Shown here: piece after piece, positions 12,452 to 56,579 of the stretch
Layout: each line of letters starts with the position of its first letter
How positions within the stretch are numbered: position 1 is the stretch's first letter
Assembly: GCA_018066245.1 (NCBI GenBank)
Contig: JAGHRT010000026.1
Span: 1 to 56,615 of the forward strand
Source of the DNA: Candidatus Equimonas faecalis
GTDB taxonomy: Bacteria > Bacteroidota > Bacteroidia > Bacteroidales > Bacteroidaceae
Length of the DNA stretch: 56,615 bases
Direction of reading: 5' to 3'
The notes under the pieces: model-generated
Databases searched by the model: none
Told to the model about the DNA's origin: nothing
Seen by the model: the letters and a program-made list of their open reading frames with translations, nothing else
Translations under genes and position numbers: made by a program

Positions 12452-12505
12452 AGCTTCTAGATTCTCTAGGTTCTCTAGAACTTCTAGTTTTTCTAGAATC
12501 TCTAG
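12452..12505 (-). repeat. 9-bp tandem array (six units) forming the 3' end of the four-helix gene
   Basis: Six consecutive 9-bp units ending in CTAG on the plus strand: AGCTTCTAG, ATTCTCTAG, GTTCTCTAG, AACTTCTAG, TTTTTCTAG, AATCTCTAG. On the minus strand, in the frame of the adjoining gene, each unit gives a TAG codon. The first of these is the gene's stop. Confidence 0.9.
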
Positions 12506-13248
12506 CTATTCTGTCCTTTTTGCTTCAGCAGGGTGAGTTCGCGTCGGAGGCTGGCCACTTGGGCTTTGAGGTCTTCTATCTCGTGGGCCTGTGCTTCGAT
12601 GATTTGTTTCTGCGTGCCTCGTCGGTCAAGGCGTGCCGCCGTCATGCGCTCACGTATGCCGCCTTCTTCCACGAACTCGCGGTCGCGCTTGGCAATGAAG
12701 GTTGTCAGGACCTTATCCACCATGTGGCACAGGCAGATGGCGGTGTTGCACATCTCCTCGTCTGTCCATTGGGAGAAGTAGGGCTGATAGTCCTCCAGTC
12801 TGTTGTGGGCTCGGCAAAAGGCGAGAAGCCTCTCGAAGCGCGGGTGAACGGCCCCGGAATCTCTAGAATTGCTAGCCTCTCTAGAACTTCTGGCCTTTCC
12901 CCAGTCACAGAGACCATGTTGTTTGAGGTAGTCCTGATAGTCCTCCATCAGTTCCTGATTGCTGCCTTGTGCAATGCCCAGCAACTTGATTTCCACCTCA
13001 AACGATGTCTGCCCGTCCGTCATGCCTTCGGCTATGTTCTGTTTGACGGAGCGTGCGGCCTGCACCATCTGGTCAACCGTGCGGTCGCCGTACTTGGGCA
13101 GGAAGCGCTCGCAGAACGCTTTGGTGAGTTGAATGAGGGCGTCGCTTTTCTGATAGAAGGCAAGCTCGGTATAGACAGCGCGTTTGCGCAGCACGCTGGG
13201 CGTTCCGTCGTCGTAGCGTTGCAACTGTATTTTGCGAGGGTCGGGCAT
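12502..13248 (-). CDS. Four-helix-bundle 'suffix'-type protein within the restriction operon
   Basis: A 248-residue protein. Residues about 25-120 resemble the four-helix-bundle fold of the 23S intervening-sequence/Avd proteins (YTELAFYQKSDALIQLTKAF, then AARSVKQNIAEGM and EVEIKLLGIAQGSNQELMED). A second part with WTDEEMCNTAICLCHMVDKV and a C-terminal coiled coil (about 205-245) fits what NCBI calls the four-helix-bundle suffix domain; I recall that name with moderate certainty. Between the parts, residues about 119-130 (SSREASNSRD) come from a 9-bp repeat array, and the stop codon lies in a second array. It sits between the methyltransferase and helicase genes, spaced 132 and 109 bases. Its function is unknown. 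Confidence 0.75.
   Translation of the reverse strand: MPDPRKIQLQRYDDGTPSVLRKRAVYTELAFYQKSDALIQLTKAFCERFLPKYGDRTVDQMVQAARSVKQNIAEGMTDGQTSFEVEIKLLGIAQGSNQELMEDYQDYLKQHGLCDWGKARSSREASNSRDSGAVHPRFERLLAFCRAHNRLEDYQPYFSQWTDEEMCNTAICLCHMVDKVLTTFIAKRDREFVEEGGIRERMTAARLDRRGTQKQIIEAQAHEIEDLKAQVASLRRELTLLKQKGQNS
12858..12893 (-). repeat. In-frame 9-bp array (four units) inside the four-helix gene
   Basis: Units AATCTCTAG, AATTGCTAG, CCTCTCTAG and AACTTCTGG on the plus strand, the same family as the array at 12452-12505. Read in the gene's frame they give S-R-D/E-type triplets without stops. Confidence 0.88.
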
Positions 13249-17860: not shown

Positions 17861-20800
17861 TTACGCCCACTCCATCTTTGCGGCGCGGACGTAGGACTCG
17901 TAGCGCTTCTGGGCCATAGCCTGGCAAGCGTCGTAGAGTTCCTGTGCCTGCTCGGGGAACTGCTTCTTGACGGAGAGGAAGCGTACCTCGCTGTTGAGGT
18001 AGTCCTGGAACTTGTCCCACTGGGGCTCCTTGCTGTCGAGCGTGAAGGGATTCTTGCCCTGCTCTTCCAGTTCGGGGTTGTAGCGCCAGAGGTGCCAGTA
18101 ACCGCACTCTACGGCTGCGGCCTCTTCGGCCTGAGCCTTGCCCATGCCCTTCTTCAGACCGTGGTTGATGCAGGGTGAGTAGGCGATGACGAGGGAAGGC
18201 CCGTGGTAGGCTTCAGCCTCGCGGAGAGCCTTGATGCACTGGTTGTTGTCGGCGCCCATGGCTACCTGTGCCACATAGACGTAGCCGTAGGTGGTGGCAA
18301 TCATGCCGAGGTCCTTCTTGCGCACGCGCTTGCCGCTGGCAGCGAACTTGGCGATGGCGCCGAGAGGCGTGGCCTTGGAGGACTGACCGCCGGTGTTGGA
18401 ATAAACCTCGGTGTCGAGCACGAGGATATTGACGTCCTCACCGCTGGCGATAACATGGTCAAGACCGCCGTAGCCGATGTCGTAGGAGGCACCGTCGCCG
18501 CCGATAATCCACTGGCTGCGCTTGGTGAGGTAGTGGGAGAGTTCCTGAAGTTGCTTGCATGTGGGGCAACCCTTGGCTGCGCTCTCATCGATGAAAGGTT
18601 TCAGCGCCGCAGCGGCTGCCTTGGAGGCATCGGCATCGTCCTGGTTGTCAATCCAGTTCTGTGCTGCTGCTTTATACTCTGCTGTTACCTTATCGGAAGC
18701 AATCATCTCCTGAAGGAGGTTTTCAATGCGCTTGCGCATCTTCTTGTTGGCGAGTACCATGCCGAGGCCGAACTCGCAGAAGTCCTCGAAGAGGGAGTTG
18801 GCCCATGCGGGACCCTGGCCCTTCTCATTGACGGTGTAGGGCGTGGAGGGGATGGAGCCGGAATAGATGGAGGAGCAACCCGTGGCGTTGGCCACCATTT
18901 CGCGGTCGCCGAAGAGCTGGCTGACGAGCTTCACATAGGGAGTCTCACCGCAACCGGAGCAAGCGCCGCTGAACTCGAAGAGAGGCGTGGCGAACTGGCT
19001 GAGACGCGGATTGAGCTTGATGTCCATGAGGTCCTGCTTGGACTTGACGTTCTTGACGCAGTAGTCCCAGTTCTTGGCCTCGCCGAGTTCGCCTTCCAGG
19101 GCTACCATCTCGAGGGCCTTGACGTTCTGGCCGTCCACCTTCTTGCCGGGGCATACATCTACGCAGTTGCCGCAGCCGAGGCAGTCCATAACGCCTACCT
19201 GCATACGGAACTTCATGCCCTTGATTTGGGCGGGAGCGAGCACGGTGAGGGTGGCGGCGTCGAGGCCGGCAGCCTCCTCGTCGGTCATAACGAAGGGACG
19301 GATGCAAGCGTGAGGACAAACGAAGGCGCACTTGTTGCACTGTGTGCAGTTGTCGGCGTTCCATGTGGGAACGAAGGCGCTGACGCCGCGCTTCTCATAG
19401 GCAGCGGTGCCCTGAGGCCAGGTACCGTCCTCGATACCCTTGAAGGCGCTCACGGGAAGGAGGTCGCCGTTCTGGGCGTTGATGGGACGCATCACGTTGG
19501 TGATGAATTCGGGCTCCTCGGCCGCATGTGCGGCAACCACTTCTCTATCCAGTTGGGCCCAAGCGGGATCAACGGGGAGTTCCTTATATTCGCCGCCGTG
19601 GTCAACGGCTGCATAGTTCTTGTTGACTACGTCCTCGCCCTTCTTGCCATAGGACTTCACGATGAAGTGCTTCATTTCTTCCACGGCCTGCTCTACGGGG
19701 ATGACGCCGGTGATGCGGAAGAAGGCGGACTGGAGGATGGTGTTGGTGCGGTTGCCGAGACCAATCTCCTGGGCAATCTTGGTGGCGTTGATATAGTAGA
19801 GTTTCACCTGCTTCTCGGCCAGCACGCGCTTCACGTTGTTGGGCAGGTTCTTGGCCAGTTCCTCGCCTTCCCAGATGGTGTTGAGGAGGAAGGTGCCGCC
19901 CTGCTGGATGCCGCGGAGGACGTCGTACATGTGGAGGTAGGCCTGAACGTGGCAAGCCACGAAGTTAGGCGTGGTAACGAGATAGGTGGAGCGGATAGGC
20001 TCGTCGCCGAAACGGAGGTGGGAGCAAGTGAAGCCGCCGGACTTCTTGGAGTCGTAGGAGAAGTAGGCCTGGCAGTACTTGTCGGTGGCACCACCGATGA
20101 TCTTGATGCTGTTCTTGTTGGCACCTACGGTACCGTCGGCACCGAGGCCGTAGAACTTGGCCTGGAACATACCGGCGCCGCCGAGGGCAACTTCTTCCTT
20201 CTGGGGGAGAGAGGTGAAGGTGACGTCGTCCACGATGCCGATGGTGAAGTGGTTCTTCGGCTGGGGCAGGGCGAGGTTCTCATATACGGAGAGAATCTGT
20301 GCGGGAGTGGTGTCGTTGGAGCCGAGGCCGTAGCGACCGCCCACGATTTCGGGAGCGTTCTCCACGCCGTAGAAGGCCTCCTTGACGTCAAGGTAAAGGG
20401 GTTCGCCGTTGGCACCGGGTTCCTTGGTGCGGTCGAGCACGGCGATGCGCTTCACCGTCTTGGGCACGGCAGCGAGGAGGTGCTTCACGCTGAAGGGACG
20501 GTAGAGGTGTACGCTGACGAGACCCACCTTCTCGCCTTGAGCGGTGAGGTGGTCGATGGCCTCGCGGGCAGCCTCGGAGGCGGAGCCCATAAGGATGATG
20601 ACGCGGTCGGCATCGTCGGCGCCGTAGTAGCTGAAGAGCTCGTACTTGCGACCGGTGATTTCGCTGACTTTGTGCATATAGTCCTCAACGATGGTGGGAA
20701 CGGCGTCGTAGAAGGAGTTGCAACTCTCACGATGTGTGAAGAAGGTGTCGGGGTTCTCGGCCATACCGCGGGCTACGGGATGCTCGGGGCTGAGGGCGCG

Positions 20801-21415
20801 GGCGCGGAACTCGGCGAGAGCCTGCTGGTCAACCAGCGGAGCAAGCTGATCGGTCTCGAGCAACTCGATTTTCTGTATCTCGTGGCTGGTGCGGAAGCCG
20901 TCGAAGAAGTTTACGAAAGGTACGCGGGCCTTGATGGCGGAAAGGTGGGCCACACCGGCGAGGTCCATGACTTCCTGTACGCTGCCTTCTGCGAGCATGG
21001 CGAAGCCGGTCTGACGGGTGCTCATAACATCCTGATGGTCGCCGAAGATGCAGAGGCTGTGGCTGGCGAGGGTACGGGCGCTGACATGGAAGACGCAGGG
21101 GAGGAACTCACCGGCAATCTTGTACATGTTGGGAATCATCAGCAGGAGACCCTGGCTGGCGGTAAAGGTGGTGGTGAGGGCACCGGCTTGGAGGGAGCCG
21201 TGCACAGCACCTGCGGCGCCGCCTTCGCTCTGCATTTCCTGCACGAGGACGGTCTCGCCGAACATATTCTTGCGGCCCTGGGCGGCCCACTCGTCAACAT
21301 ACTCTGCCATCGTGGAGGACGGCGTGATGGGGTAGATGGCAGCCACCTCACTGAACATATACGCGATATGGGCAGCGGCCTGGTTACCATCACAAGTGAT
21401 AAATTTCTTTGCCAT
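17861..21415 (-). CDS. nifJ: Pyruvate:ferredoxin (flavodoxin) oxidoreductase
   Basis: An 1184-residue single-chain enzyme that oxidises pyruvate to acetyl-CoA and CO2 while reducing ferredoxin or flavodoxin, central to anaerobic metabolism. Domain order fits the family: an N-terminal pyrimidine/TPP-binding part (ITPSSTMAEYVDEW), a gamma domain, two ferredoxin-type [4Fe-4S] motifs (CTQCNKCAFVCPHAC near 688 and CLGCGNCVDVCPGKK near 744), and the C-terminal TPP domain with a further cluster ligand region (CSGCGETPYVKL near 820; GDGASYDIGYGG near 970). The start is ATG 21415 (MAKKFITCDGNQ). The frame stays open to 21556, but that stretch only translates a repeat. A 9-bp array lies 11 bases upstream of the ATG, where a ribosome-binding site would be. 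Confidence 0.96.
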   Translation of the reverse strand: MAKKFITCDGNQAAAHIAYMFSEVAAIYPITPSSTMAEYVDEWAAQGRKNMFGETVLVQEMQSEGGAAGAVHGSLQAGALTTTFTASQGLLLMIPNMYKIAGEFLPCVFHVSARTLASHSLCIFGDHQDVMSTRQTGFAMLAEGSVQEVMDLAGVAHLSAIKARVPFVNFFDGFRTSHEIQKIELLETDQLAPLVDQQALAEFRARALSPEHPVARGMAENPDTFFTHRESCNSFYDAVPTIVEDYMHKVSEITGRKYELFSYYGADDADRVIILMGSASEAAREAIDHLTAQGEKVGLVSVHLYRPFSVKHLLAAVPKTVKRIAVLDRTKEPGANGEPLYLDVKEAFYGVENAPEIVGGRYGLGSNDTTPAQILSVYENLALPQPKNHFTIGIVDDVTFTSLPQKEEVALGGAGMFQAKFYGLGADGTVGANKNSIKIIGGATDKYCQAYFSYDSKKSGGFTCSHLRFGDEPIRSTYLVTTPNFVACHVQAYLHMYDVLRGIQQGGTFLLNTIWEGEELAKNLPNNVKRVLAEKQVKLYYINATKIAQEIGLGNRTNTILQSAFFRITGVIPVEQAVEEMKHFIVKSYGKKGEDVVNKNYAAVDHGGEYKELPVDPAWAQLDREVVAAHAAEEPEFITNVMRPINAQNGDLLPVSAFKGIEDGTWPQGTAAYEKRGVSAFVPTWNADNCTQCNKCAFVCPHACIRPFVMTDEEAAGLDAATLTVLAPAQIKGMKFRMQVGVMDCLGCGNCVDVCPGKKVDGQNVKALEMVALEGELGEAKNWDYCVKNVKSKQDLMDIKLNPRLSQFATPLFEFSGACSGCGETPYVKLVSQLFGDREMVANATGCSSIYSGSIPSTPYTVNEKGQGPAWANSLFEDFCEFGLGMVLANKKMRKRIENLLQEMIASDKVTAEYKAAAQNWIDNQDDADASKAAAAALKPFIDESAAKGCPTCKQLQELSHYLTKRSQWIIGGDGASYDIGYGGLDHVIASGEDVNILVLDTEVYSNTGGQSSKATPLGAIAKFAASGKRVRKKDLGMIATTYGYVYVAQVAMGADNNQCIKALREAEAYHGPSLVIAYSPCINHGLKKGMGKAQAEEAAAVECGYWHLWRYNPELEEQGKNPFTLDSKEPQWDKFQDYLNSEVRFLSVKKQFPEQAQELYDACQAMAQKRYESYVRAAKMEWA

Positions 21416-21426
21416 GTTTATTGAAT

Positions 21427-21545
21427 GTGAATAATGTGAGTAATGTGGATAATGTGAAAATAGAAGATACTTTTGCGCACTTGTACTCAATATCCGTATG
21501 TTAGTAAATTGTCCTTTAAGTAATGTGGATAATGTGAAATAATGT
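21427..21545 (+). repeat. 9-bp GTGRRTAAT arrays upstream of nifJ
   Basis: GTGAATAAT, GTGAGTAAT, GTGGATAAT and a decayed GTGAAAATA at 21427-21462, and AGTAAT-GTGGATAAT-GTGAAATAAT at 21519-21543. They are written in plus-strand orientation, opposite to the related array at 21987-22022. Together these arrays bracket the small four-helix gene. Confidence 0.88.
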
Positions 21546-21611
21546 TTGTTTCGCAATTACCCACAATGTTTATTAATTATATGGCTCGAAAATATTATTG
21601 TCAGAACCTTT

Positions 21612-22022
21612 TTATCTCTTTGTTTTACTTCTATAAATGATAGCACCGAGTAAGCGGGATATTTCATTCTGCATCTGACTTAAGTGCGAGGATTCAGGGA
21701 GTCTGCCGTATTTACAAAGGGTAAGCCAATAGGCTGTCTCTCGACACTCTTTGTCAGCGATTTTCATTTTGTGGATAAAGTCGGCGGCGCTTTCTGAACT
21801 TTGGGCCTCTGCCACGTTTGCACCAATGGATGAGGCACTGCGGAACAGTTGGTCGGCCAGTGAATAACGGTGCATGCCAATAAGACAGTCCGTATACTCC
21901 ATAACAGCAATAGAGAACCTTGTAGTAAGGTCCACTATCGCATTACCCGTGGGTGATGGGGCGTTTGAACAACTGTAAGTTTTTGAATTACTCACATTAT
22001 CCACATTACTCACATTATCCAC
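21612..22022 (-). CDS. Four-helix-bundle protein (23S IVP / Avd-like fold)
   Basis: A 136-residue protein. From about residue 25 it follows the TIGR02436 pattern: IVDLTTRFSIAVMEYTD, then YSLADQLFRSASSIGANVAE, FIHKMKIADKECRETAYWL, and a last helix with QNEISRLLGAIIYRSK. Relatives are encoded in 23S rRNA intervening sequences, and as Avd they assist the reverse transcriptase of diversity-generating retroelements. No rRNA or reverse transcriptase is adjacent here. The first 12 residues (VDN/VSN triplets) are the translated 9-bp array, and any of four in-frame GTG codons, one per unit, could be the start. It follows the AAA gene by 9 bases on the same strand and precedes nifJ. Confidence 0.8.
   Translation of the reverse strand: MDNVSNVDNVSNSKTYSCSNAPSPTGNAIVDLTTRFSIAVMEYTDCLIGMHRYSLADQLFRSASSIGANVAEAQSSESAADFIHKMKIADKECRETAYWLTLCKYGRLPESSHLSQMQNEISRLLGAIIYRSKTKR
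21987..22022 (-). repeat. 9-bp array supplying the start of the four-helix gene
   Basis: Read on the minus strand: GTGGATAAT, GTGAGTAAT, GTGGATAAT, GTGAGTAAT. There are exactly four units, beginning at the first possible start codon. It is inverted relative to the arrays at 21427-21545. Confidence 0.92.
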
Positions 22023-22031
22023 ATTGGAAAA

Positions 22032-23213
22032 TTACTGGAGGAAGCCGAAGAGCCAGACGGGAATGTCTCTGTCGCGTCCCATTTCTATGCCGTAGCGCAC
22101 GGCGTAGCTCTTGGGGCCTGTCTTCACGCGGCGGTTGGGCTCGCACACGCACACTTCGTACTCGCCGTTAATAACGAAGAGGTTCTTTCGGTGTCCCCGG
22201 CATATCCGGTTGTGTCGCCAGAGTGTATTGGTGAAGAACGTAGTCATTACGCGCAATTCGCTCACGTCGGAGTTGTATATGCTGTACAGAAGGTTGGTGT
22301 CGTGCAACATTACGGCGGCAGGCTTCTTAGGGAAGGAGTCGCCTTCGCGGTATATCATGTTCACGAGGCGGGCCTCCTCAAGGTATTTCAGGTAGTTCAT
22401 TACCGTGGCACGGCTCGTACCAATGTCGAGTGCCAGTTGGCTGACATTGGCGGCGGTGTCGTTGGTTACGGCCAACAGATAGAGTAGGTTTTTCAGACGC
22501 TCCAGATACTTCAACTCGATTTGTTTGATGAAGAGCACGTCCACCTCTATCATCATATTCATGGCTTTGAGGAGTGCTTCAGTGAAGTTGTTGTTTTCGA
22601 GGAAGAAGGGGTAGTAGCCGTAGTGCAGGTAGGCATTGAACGCATCGAGGGGACGCACTTCGTGCAGGATGCTGCGAGCTATGATTTCGTGATTCTCCAA
22701 CAATTCGTTCAGGGAGTAGGTGCGGAAGTGCGTACCATACTTGAGGTTGAGAAATTCCCTGAATGAGAAGCCGTGAAGATAGTAGGTGCGTGCTAAGTGG
22801 TTGAGAGGGCTATGCTCTGCATCGTTGTCCTGTACGGAGGTCGTACTATATACAATGCGCAGGTTGGGGTATTTGTTGTAGCACTCTATCAGTTGGTTGC
22901 GCCATTCGGGCAGTTTGAAGGCTTGGTCGATAAGCAGCACACGTCCTCCGTTTTCCACAAAATCTCCTGCAAACTCCACGATGCCGCGGGCTTGGAAGTA
23001 GAAATTGTTCATGTTCACATAGAGGCATTGCCTCAGGCGTGTGTCAAAGTTCTCCTTGGCATATTGCAGGAGGAAGTTGGTGCGTCCCACACCTCTTGGG
23101 CCGCGAATGCCAATCATGCGGTAGCTCCAGTCAATGGAATCCATCAGAGCCCTGCGAATGGGGGCGTTGGTGTGTTCGATGAGGTAGGCGTGTGATTTGA
23201 AGAAAGTCTCCAT
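22032..23213 (-). CDS. AAA_14/DUF4143-type ATPase-like protein with degenerate Walker motifs
   Basis: A 393-residue protein starting at ATG 23213 (METFFKSHAYL). The layout is that of the AAA_14 plus DUF4143 family: an N-terminal P-loop domain, then a winged-helix-like region (ALDIGTSRATVMNYLKYLEEA) and a C-terminal nuclease-like fold ending in VWLFGFLQ. Members are often genomic-island proteins of unclear role. The P-loop reads GPRGVGRT near residue 38, with Arg in place of the catalytic Lys. The Walker B reads LLIDQA near residue 91, with Gln in place of Glu. Both changes predict poor or no ATP hydrolysis. It is followed 9 bases later by the four-helix gene. Confidence 0.82.
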   Translation of the reverse strand: METFFKSHAYLIEHTNAPIRRALMDSIDWSYRMIGIRGPRGVGRTNFLLQYAKENFDTRLRQCLYVNMNNFYFQARGIVEFAGDFVENGGRVLLIDQAFKLPEWRNQLIECYNKYPNLRIVYSTTSVQDNDAEHSPLNHLARTYYLHGFSFREFLNLKYGTHFRTYSLNELLENHEIIARSILHEVRPLDAFNAYLHYGYYPFFLENNNFTEALLKAMNMMIEVDVLFIKQIELKYLERLKNLLYLLAVTNDTAANVSQLALDIGTSRATVMNYLKYLEEARLVNMIYREGDSFPKKPAAVMLHDTNLLYSIYNSDVSELRVMTTFFTNTLWRHNRICRGHRKNLFVINGEYEVCVCEPNRRVKTGPKSYAVRYGIEMGRDRDIPVWLFGFLQ

Positions 23214-23356
23214 AGTTTTCCTTTCTTTGATTATAGTTGATTTCGTTAGCCGCTGCAAAATTACACTTTTCTTTTGAATTTGCAAAGCGTGTCTGGCATT
23301 ATTTTTTATCCCGGGCCAGCTTTACCTTCTTCCGCGTTTGTTGGAAAGAGGTGGGC

Positions 23357-26132: not shown

Positions 26133-26272
26133 CAACTTTATTCCGAAATGGCGAAGCATTCAGCCCAAAAACTCACCTCAAGCCCTAAATCGGCCTCCTA
26201 AATGCTTCCGTTCCCTGCATTTTCCGCCCATTCACCCCCGTCAATACACCTGTTCCATCTTATGCCACCCTA

Positions 26273-26398
26273 CTCTGCCGACAGCTTTTCGTACTCCGCC
26301 GACAGTTTTTCGTACTCCGCCGATAGTTTTTCGTAATCCGCCGACATTTTTTCGTACTCCGCCGATAGCTTTTTGTAATCCGCCGCCAGTTCCCTGCA
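26273..26398 (+). repeat. 21-bp tandem repeat, six units
   Basis: Six consecutive 21-bp units of the form MTCYGCCGAYAGYTTTTCGTA, with the last one decayed. The complement contains ACTATCGGCGGA, which also occurs in the first unit of the 43.3-kb array and, as ACTGTCGGCGGA, in the terminator near 510. The unit length keeps one frame open, but there is no sign of a gene. It lies in the gene-free interval between tRNA-Leu and tRNA-Lys. Confidence 0.9.
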
Positions 26399-43075: not shown

Positions 43076-43118
43076 TCGGGTGTCTGTTGTCGGGGGTGTC
43101 CATAATGGATGCGCCTGC

Positions 43119-43320
43119 AAAGTTACGAATAAGCGAGTGAAAAGCCAAATGAGCGCAGCGAAATTTGAGCTTTTCCGAGCGTGAGTAACTAAAACCGCAG
43201 GCTAAAGTTACGAATAAGCGAGTGAAAAGCCTGCATGAGCGCAGCGAAAATTGAGATTTTCCGAACGAAAGTATCTTGGAGCGAAGCTCAAAGTACGAAT
43301 AAGCGAGTGAAAAGGCCAAG
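43119..43320. repeat. 85-86-bp element, two tandem copies and a partial third
   Basis: Copies begin at AAAGTTACGAATAAGCGAGT (43119 and 43204) and at AAAGTACGAATAAGCG (43290). A fourth copy lies at 56175-56260. The left edge read on the minus strand gives TAACTTTG (43118-43125), a -7 box for the DUF1599 gene. Confidence 0.9.
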
Positions 43321-56432: not shown

Positions 56433-56579
56433 TCAAGACACCAAGATACCAAGATACCAAGATACCGTGATACCAAGATACGCATTTCCCCAGACAAAAT
56501 GCCGAGTTATAACGTTATGCCCTGCAATTAAAACTTACACGCAAAAAGGTATCTGGGTATCTTGGTATCTCGGTATCTT
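56433..56579. repeat. Pair of inverted 8-bp arrays at the window end
   Basis: CCAAGATA units at 56441-56480 (five, one of them CCGTGATA, with a degenerate unit before them) and GGTATCTN units at 56548-56579 (four). The second is the complement of the first and is bracketed by CGCAAAAA and TTTTTGCG. About 67 bases separate the arrays. Confidence 0.9.

Follow-up and report, generated by a model that had tools for sequence, protein, structure and literature searches.

The 56,615-nucleotide stretch of Candidatus Equimonas faecalis DNA analyzed here (the window) probably carries a small mobile cassette resembling the intervening sequences (IVSs) of 23S rRNA. In this cassette, an S23 gene is enclosed by inverted arms made of short tandem units, and the whole was gained between an ATPase gene and nifJ. 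Inverted arms of this kind typify S23 genes across several phyla, an observation that is well supported by a survey of 108 loci and by control genes. The features are collected in Table 1.

Table 1. Cassette features and host genes in the window.
Feature	Position	Strand	Basis or remark
Whole cassette: 5' arm, S23 ORF and 3' arms	21424..22025	-	No counterpart between the two host genes in G009 and other relatives
5' arm: four 9-bp units, GTGGATAAT and GTGAGTAAT alternating, overlapping the 5' end of the ORF	21987..22025	-	Stem partner of 21424-21458
S23 (23S-rRNA-intervening-sequence-type) four-helix-bundle gene; 136 aa when read from the first array GTG	21612..22022	-	TIGR02436 and PF05635
Proximal 3' array of the same 9-bp unit: one exact unit and one 10-nt unit	~21520..21544	+	Sequence reading, tandem-repeat search
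Distal 3' arm: GTGAATAAT GTGAGTAAT GTGGATAAT GTGAA, inverted relative to the 5' arm	21424..21458	+	Predicted RNA stem with 21991-22025
Downstream host gene nifJ (pyruvate:ferredoxin oxidoreductase; name from the earlier note)	17861..21415	-	ORF list; start ATG at 21415
Upstream host gene: AAA_14-domain ATPase; 9 nt separate its end from the S23 ORF	22032..23285	-	PF13173; orthologue adjoins nifJ in G009 and G092

A cassette between an ATPase gene and nifJ

Reading of the sequence, the ORF list, and a tandem-repeat search agree that the minus-strand array GTGGATAAT GTGAGTAAT GTGGATAAT GTGAGTAAT (22022 to 21987) opens the S23 ORF. The array is translated as VDN/VSN triplets, with the first GTG displayed as M. 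An earlier note on this DNA, made from the letters alone, had described four 9-bp units starting at the first in-frame GTG and encoding these triplets, and this description was confirmed. The only in-frame ATG, GTG, or TTG codons ahead of the conserved domain are the four array GTGs and a GTG at 21935-21933, and a start at the latter would leave almost nothing ahead of the domain. Because the array GTGs are otherwise the sole in-frame start codons before the domain, it is plausible that the array supplies the start codon of the ORF. Beyond the 3' end of the gene, the same note had placed arrays in the opposite orientation, one of them 11 nt from the nifJ ATG. Both are found there, and the distal arm, with three full units and a partial one, is separated from that ATG by positions 21416-21426.

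The protein matches TIGR02436 (E 4.6e-24, 84.7 bits, curated cut-off 24) and PF05635 (E 1.5e-20, 73.8 bits, curated cut-off 33.8). A profile of relatives that includes the window's S23 gene matches PDB entries 2rld and 2gsc, the latter being the solved structure of XCC0516 of X. campestris. The note's statement on a four-helix-bundle fold shared with IVS proteins and Avd agrees with these matches and with the Avd/PF05635 comparison in the consulted part of PMC10053308. In a predicted RNA fold, the 5' arm pairs with the distal 3' arm over 35 bp and encloses the whole ORF (z -5.5, 20 shuffles). The ATPase gene, the S23 ORF, and nifJ all lie on the minus strand and run in one direction. The arrays exceed chance: the two-unit pattern ATTAYYCACATTAYYCAC has six matches in the 2.59-Mb genome of origin (G000), five of them at the cassette, and its reversed control has none. 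Since this genome is a draft of 62 contigs, the array lengths may be imperfect.

Other repeats are present in the window. A second four-helix-bundle gene (12502-13248, minus strand) carries the "suffix" domain TIGR04258, with 9-bp TCTAGAnnn-type repeats between its two domains (12857-12896) and around and after its stop (12454-12512). Two 8-bp arrays, of CAAGATAC type and GGTATCTT type, lie in opposite orientation about 66 bp apart (56434-56481 and 56548-56579); the pair at 56434-56579 looks like an ORF-less hairpin of another unit. Tandem arrays with 21/42-bp and 85-bp units occur at 26271-26391 and 43118-43319, and a similar-looking 21-bp unit is found elsewhere in the same genome (L228:3317-3391).

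The cassette is missing from the corresponding site in relatives. In the sister genome G009, the end of nifJ is 97-98% identical and the ATPase gene 82-84% identical, and the matched blocks are separated by 105 nt, compared with 602 nt in the window. Reading of this junction, a pattern check, and a six-frame S23 scan found neither an S23 ORF nor a 9-bp array in the gap. The junction check covered 12 loci from ten relatives (G009, G092, G096, G021, whose junction contains 10 N, G086, G015, G014, G016, G082, and G024). The array pattern was negative in all of them, and the S23 gene was likewise absent from the ATPase/nifJ junctions of the nine relatives other than G009. A nifJ match and a match to the 3' end of the ATPase gene fell on one contig in 18 of 57 other genomes of the genus. 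From the match coordinates, the gap is at most 234 nt in 16 of these, 566 nt in G086, and 450 nt in G099; the 566-nt gap, read as sequence, holds neither S23 nor an array. Across 20 loci, the six-frame scan detected the gene only in two positive controls. It is thus well supported by these alignments that arms and S23 gene at the window locus are present or absent together as one unit, as the earlier note had supposed for the protein and its arrays. Because the relatives' junctions and the six-frame scan lack the cassette, we read it as a recent gain in the window's lineage between co-directional genes.

A second comparison of filled and empty sites comes from plasmids. Plasmid pC052_A of Nostoc sp. 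C052 has a cassette, and the S23 gene is absent from four homologous plasmid loci, of which two belong to that same strain. These four empty loci hold about 200 nt of other sequence missing from the filled site, so that pC052_A is not a clean insertion; the event looks like an insertion with deletion, or a replacement. No target-site duplication is visible at the empty sites of G009, where the intergenic DNA itself differs, or of Nostoc, where the filled site is about 200 nt short, and neither such a duplication nor a transposase or excision product was found.

Inverted arms at S23 genes in several phyla

An initial view of the genome of origin and its relatives showed tandem arrays around most PF05635 genes. 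We then compared the upstream and downstream 200 nt at 108 S23 loci from several phyla: 36 from the own order (genomes of the same genus or order as the window, including its own), 14 plasmid loci drawn from 29 plasmid records found, 30 from genomes chosen for (GGGAATC)4 arrays, and 28 from the order of G061. As these loci are best matches, weak family members are under-represented, and because orthologous loci are included, not all are independent. Inverted arms were significant at 84 of the 108 loci (100 dinucleotide shuffles, p<=0.01), among them 24 of the 36 in the own-order set. Against mismatched pairs, computed with the loci oriented and with a threshold for each group, 81 loci exceeded the 95th percentile (own order, 29/36; (GGGAATC)4-chosen genomes, 18/30; order of G061, 23/28; plasmids, 11/14). 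The best period at the 88 loci with a clear arm pair was 7 in 77, 8 in 7, 9 in 2, and 6 in 2, which makes the window's cassette a rare 9-bp form. In the upstream arm of these pairs, G exceeded C in 77 and C exceeded G in 9, with 2 tied.

Significant arm pairing was absent from 24 of the 108 loci in the shuffle test. The earlier note had held that homologues without arrays would tell against the link between gene and arrays; such loci form a minority, and the link was not refuted. Five of the seven S23 loci in the genome of origin were not significant in this test. One of them, L011, scores 54 when the ORF ends are used, and the remaining ones have arrays nearby or within the gene, with no simple inverted bracket. 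L008 is significant by shuffling, yet scores 14 in the ORF-end test. The single Chloroflexota locus (L052) fails the arm tests.

The note had also proposed comparing array flanking at this gene family with that at other genes, and this comparison sets S23 genes apart. In the window and 34 further stretches, an inverted-flank score of at least 30 was reached by 27 of 34 S23 ORFs and by 22 of 472 other ORFs. Among controls of at most 250 aa, the count was 10 of 230 (p 2.5e-22). By group, the S23 and control counts were 9/13 vs 2/226 in the own order, 4/5 vs 0/62 in Xanthomonas and relatives, 9/10 vs 18/113 in Moorena, which pushes the control rate up, and 5/6 vs 2/71 in other cyanobacteria. The A1 profile misses suffix-type S23 genes, so that such genes are counted among the controls. 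One of the two own-order control matches is a profile-missed S23-plus-suffix gene, and the other, identified by eye, is an IS200/RAYT-like gene flanked by REP-like palindromes; this last gene amounts to a natural positive control. A reading of the arms as chance inverted repeats was rejected on the shuffles, the mismatched pairs, and the control ORFs. Phase variation of S23 by array slippage was likewise rejected as the main explanation: in the window, steps of 9 bp leave the frame intact, and at the loci read, the arms mostly lie outside the coding sequence on both sides.

These counts also bear on the view that the arrays are ordinary, slippage-prone microsatellites or hairpins, independent of an S23 gene that merely tends to sit in or near them. 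Arrays without S23 do exist, copy number shifts by whole units, and heptamer repeats are abundant in bacteria, as the consulted part of PMC4692102 reports. This view is nevertheless unlikely, since the S23 genes stand out among the 506 ORFs scored, the arm units vary between cassettes yet match across the gene, and the empty site lacks both the arms and the gene.

Arrays of GGGAATC were followed in other genomes. A (GGGAATC)4 pattern scan returned at least 118 stretches, mainly from Xanthomonas relatives and cyanobacteria. PF05635 genes were present in 19 of the 21 genomes examined, which had been chosen for such arrays; no S23 gene was detected in Vibrio jasicida or X. populi. Among 200 genomes of the order of G061, S23 was found in 21 of 24 with GGGAATC arrays, leaving three with no detected gene, and in 53 of 176 without them (p 8e-8, uncorrected for relatedness); all 10 genomes with at least 10 GGGAATC matches have S23. 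AGGGCTG arrays occur in 8 of the 200 genomes, five of them S23-positive and three with no detected S23 gene. Neighboring pairs of GGGA(A/T)T-type arrays within 300 bp were convergent in at least 27 cases and divergent in none among the 118 stretches listed, which had been chosen for (GGGAATC)4.

In Xanthomonas, Luteimonas, Lysobacter, Rhodanobacter, Frateuria, Dokdonella, and Vulcaniibacterium, an S23 gene occupies the interval from the apparent end of accB to the apparent start of accC, both genes having been named by eye. Signature search found 13 accC-linked loci, and two more (L180 and L197) were found by eye. These copies sit mostly within inverted arms of GGGAATC or GGGATTC type; those of L187 are not significant. 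The arms change in a linked manner across 13 loci (permutation p 0.0002), a pattern given no weight in the main argument, since common descent could produce it by itself. The dN/dS of S23 was 0.05-0.27 in 9 of 10 pairs, with dS above 1 in three; the pair L177-L183 was dropped on account of an in-frame stop in L183 and an alignment slip. By these ratios, purifying selection acts on the S23 protein in the pairs tested. At this site (Xanthomonas loci L177-L191), different Xanthomonas, two X. arboricola genomes among them, carry two diverged cassette types, with GGGAATC and GGGATTC arms. The two types have 65% protein identity in the compared pair. The X. bromi copy at accB-accC carries an in-frame stop.

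Dispersed units, arm turnover, and a proposed mechanism

Of 58 genomes of the genus, two contain the 9-bp two-unit pattern: the genome of origin and G009. On contig C53, the former holds an ORF-less inverted pair of the window's unit; its spacer is short, and a gene starts about 10 nt further on. The G009 orthologue of this hairpin is near-identical except for exactly 18 bp, that is, two more units. Other G009 sites of the unit are in part hairpins and in part plain arrays. For three of these sites, the orthologous places in G000 are array-free (C7, C39, and C45), and for a fourth site (C5) the match covered a single side. None of the three PF05635 genes of G009 carries the 9-bp unit, and its array contigs have no PF05635 match; arrays and partner gene thus need not sit together.

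The unit sequence is lineage-specific: arms match within one cassette, and the unit differs between cassettes. An S23 relative in G082 that matches the window's gene at the DNA level has, by eye, an 8-bp AATGTGCT unit and a similar palindrome in both arms. The S23 cassette of G032 is built of TTAGAC(A/G), a unit with 184 pattern matches in that genome, 51 in G083, and none in 56 other genomes of the genus. These heptamers of G032 and G083 represent a lineage-specific amplification. That dispersed same-unit arrays derive from S23 cassettes is moderately supported.

Within cassettes, the two arms change together. The plasmid cassettes of three Nostoc strains have 4/4, 4/4, and 3/3 exact units in the left and right arms, Nostoc UHCC 0870 has one segment inserted into both arms, and Planktothrix strains vary in unit number. 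In Nostoc C052, CAAAAT opens the left arm and is complementary to an ATTTTG located at the right end; the TTTG of that right end is host sequence common to the empty plasmids. These turnover data (units, paired arm changes, and C052 ends) fit arm-to-arm copying across a hairpin. Whole-block presence and absence, together with varying unit copy number, support the earlier proposal of a mobile or copy-number-varying element with the arrays as its ends.

S23 genes also recur in defense-type plasmid operons. One case gives a third comparison of filled and empty sites: two Nostocales plasmids (L044 and L048) have the order cas2-S23-cas1, and Nostoc UHCC 0870 has cas2 directly beside cas1. The arms are significant in L048 and not in L044. 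At L043, L051, L052, L208, and L209, S23 follows a helicase gene (drmD in two) and mostly precedes a methylase or restriction-type gene.

A mechanism can be proposed on these grounds. The cassette would be co-transcribed with its host operon, and the arms would form a long double-stranded RNA stem, cleavable by RNase III as in the Coxiella 23S rRNA IVS. Such cutting would let the operon tolerate the cassette. The S23 protein may recognize arm nucleic acid and help propagation, and the second arm may be rebuilt by copying the first across the hairpin, so that the arms stay alike.

The stem could instead be the whole function. In that case, the arms would be RNA-processing or regulatory stems that insulate the S23 cistron from the operon and tune S23 and nifJ expression, with no mobility at present. 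The strong predicted stem around the ORF agrees with this, as do the reported cutting of the Coxiella IVS by RNase III in vitro (consulted part of PMC4990558) and the neighbors, which are co-directional on both sides of 19 of 33 S23 genes vs 187 of 508 controls (p 0.025). We consider it quite unlikely, as it leaves unexplained both the dispersed ORF-less copies of the same unit and the presence or absence between relatives; it could also hold alongside mobility, as a second property. A REPIN/RAYT-like arrangement, in which a transposase moves the arm hairpins in trans and S23 is a binding or protective partner, not the mover, shares the pattern of a gene with repeats on both sides and further inverted pairs of the repeat elsewhere. 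It would suit both the retention of S23 between accB and accC in several genera and the IS200/RAYT-like gene of the genome of origin among the control matches. It is nevertheless highly improbable because no transposase gene adjoins the cassette, whose neighbors are the AAA ATPase gene and nifJ, and because its arms are tandem arrays, not REP palindromes.

Returning to the mobile cassette, a broader generalization is offered tentatively. S23 genes might be the coding cores of widespread, unrecognized mobile elements with inverted tandem arms, in which the unit length is fixed at 7 nt and the unit sequence is free. IVSs and much of the heptamer load of bacterial genomes might then be members or ORF-less derivatives. 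The S23 ring might set the 7-nt step, possibly with a polymerase or reverse transcriptase, and fold-back copying might keep the arms alike. S23 cassettes may in this way explain the origin of many puzzling seven-letter arrays in bacterial genomes. Should the S23 gene and its arrays prove to be a single system, the obvious deletion target would be the four-helix-bundle gene, with array count, unit sequence, and new insertions as the read-out. Two published open questions would become jointly testable, namely the role of S23p and the origin of IVSs (PMC4990558), and the dispersed heptamers (PMC4692102 and PMC4679880), as posed in the portions consulted of these papers.

Comparison with known systems

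Several known systems share parts of this anatomy. In REPIN/RAYT elements, the repeat on either side of a gene recurs across the genome in inverted pairs. The cassettes resemble them in this dispersal, as seen for the GGGA(A/T)T-type arrays and for the hairpin of the window's own unit at G000:C53. They differ in that the window's flanked gene belongs to PF05635 and is not a Y1 (IS200-like) transposase, and in that its arms have no REP palindrome core. A REPIN-like locus is present in the genome of origin (L227:7303-7759, G000:C49), where an IS200/RAYT-like gene, identified by eye, has inverted GCGTCTGGAAGACGC palindrome flanks. Avd of diversity-generating retroelements has a four-helix-bundle fold related to PF05635, according to the consulted part of PMC10053308. 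The direct neighbors of the window's S23 gene are instead the AAA ATPase gene and nifJ, and no reverse transcriptase or repeat pair was recognized among its adjacent genes.

Short tandem repeats similar to these arms have been described separately. Rehm et al. (2015, PMC4692102) reported, in the portion consulted, that the GGGAATC and GGGGA(C/T)T heptamers of Xanthomonas and Nostoc are dispersed, mostly intergenic, and variable in copy number. They often form close inverted pairs and were treated as G-quadruplex repeats of unknown role. Such units flank the accB-accC S23 gene in Xanthomonas and relatives, and the main text of that paper mentions neither S23 nor a helix bundle nor the word intervening. 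TAACTGA direct repeats were described in Beggiatoaceae, Cyanobacteria, and Bacteroidetes, with a patchy distribution that suggests transfer (MacGregor 2015, PMC4679880). In the main genome studied there, they lie mostly as direct repeats before start codons, and the mechanism of transfer was not evident. The reverse complement, TCAGTTA, occurs in an arm of a Moorena S23 cassette (L175); the consulted part of that paper does not mention S23 or a four-helix protein. Among open-licence PMC papers, judged by titles and the beginnings of abstracts, we found none linking S23 genes to dispersed arrays, and PMC4990558, in the part consulted, notes heptamers within one IVS.

The closest likeness is to that element, the 23S rRNA IVS of Coxiella burnetii. 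As described in the consulted portion of Warrier et al. (2016, PMC4990558), it contains an S23p ORF, has terminal inverted repeats that form a 28-bp stem, and is cleaved by RNase III in vitro. Tandem heptamers (GACAGAT) precede its ORF and vary in number among strains, and IVSs are there termed selfish elements of unclear origin. The window's cassette likewise has an S23p ORF inside the element and terminal inverted repeats that form the predicted 35-bp stem. It differs in its 9-bp unit, in having arrays as both arms, in the existence of dispersed ORF-less arrays of the same unit, and in its position between protein-coding genes, not in a 23S rRNA helix. Because it lies outside rRNA, the window's element is not an IVS itself; by analogy, it would work like one.
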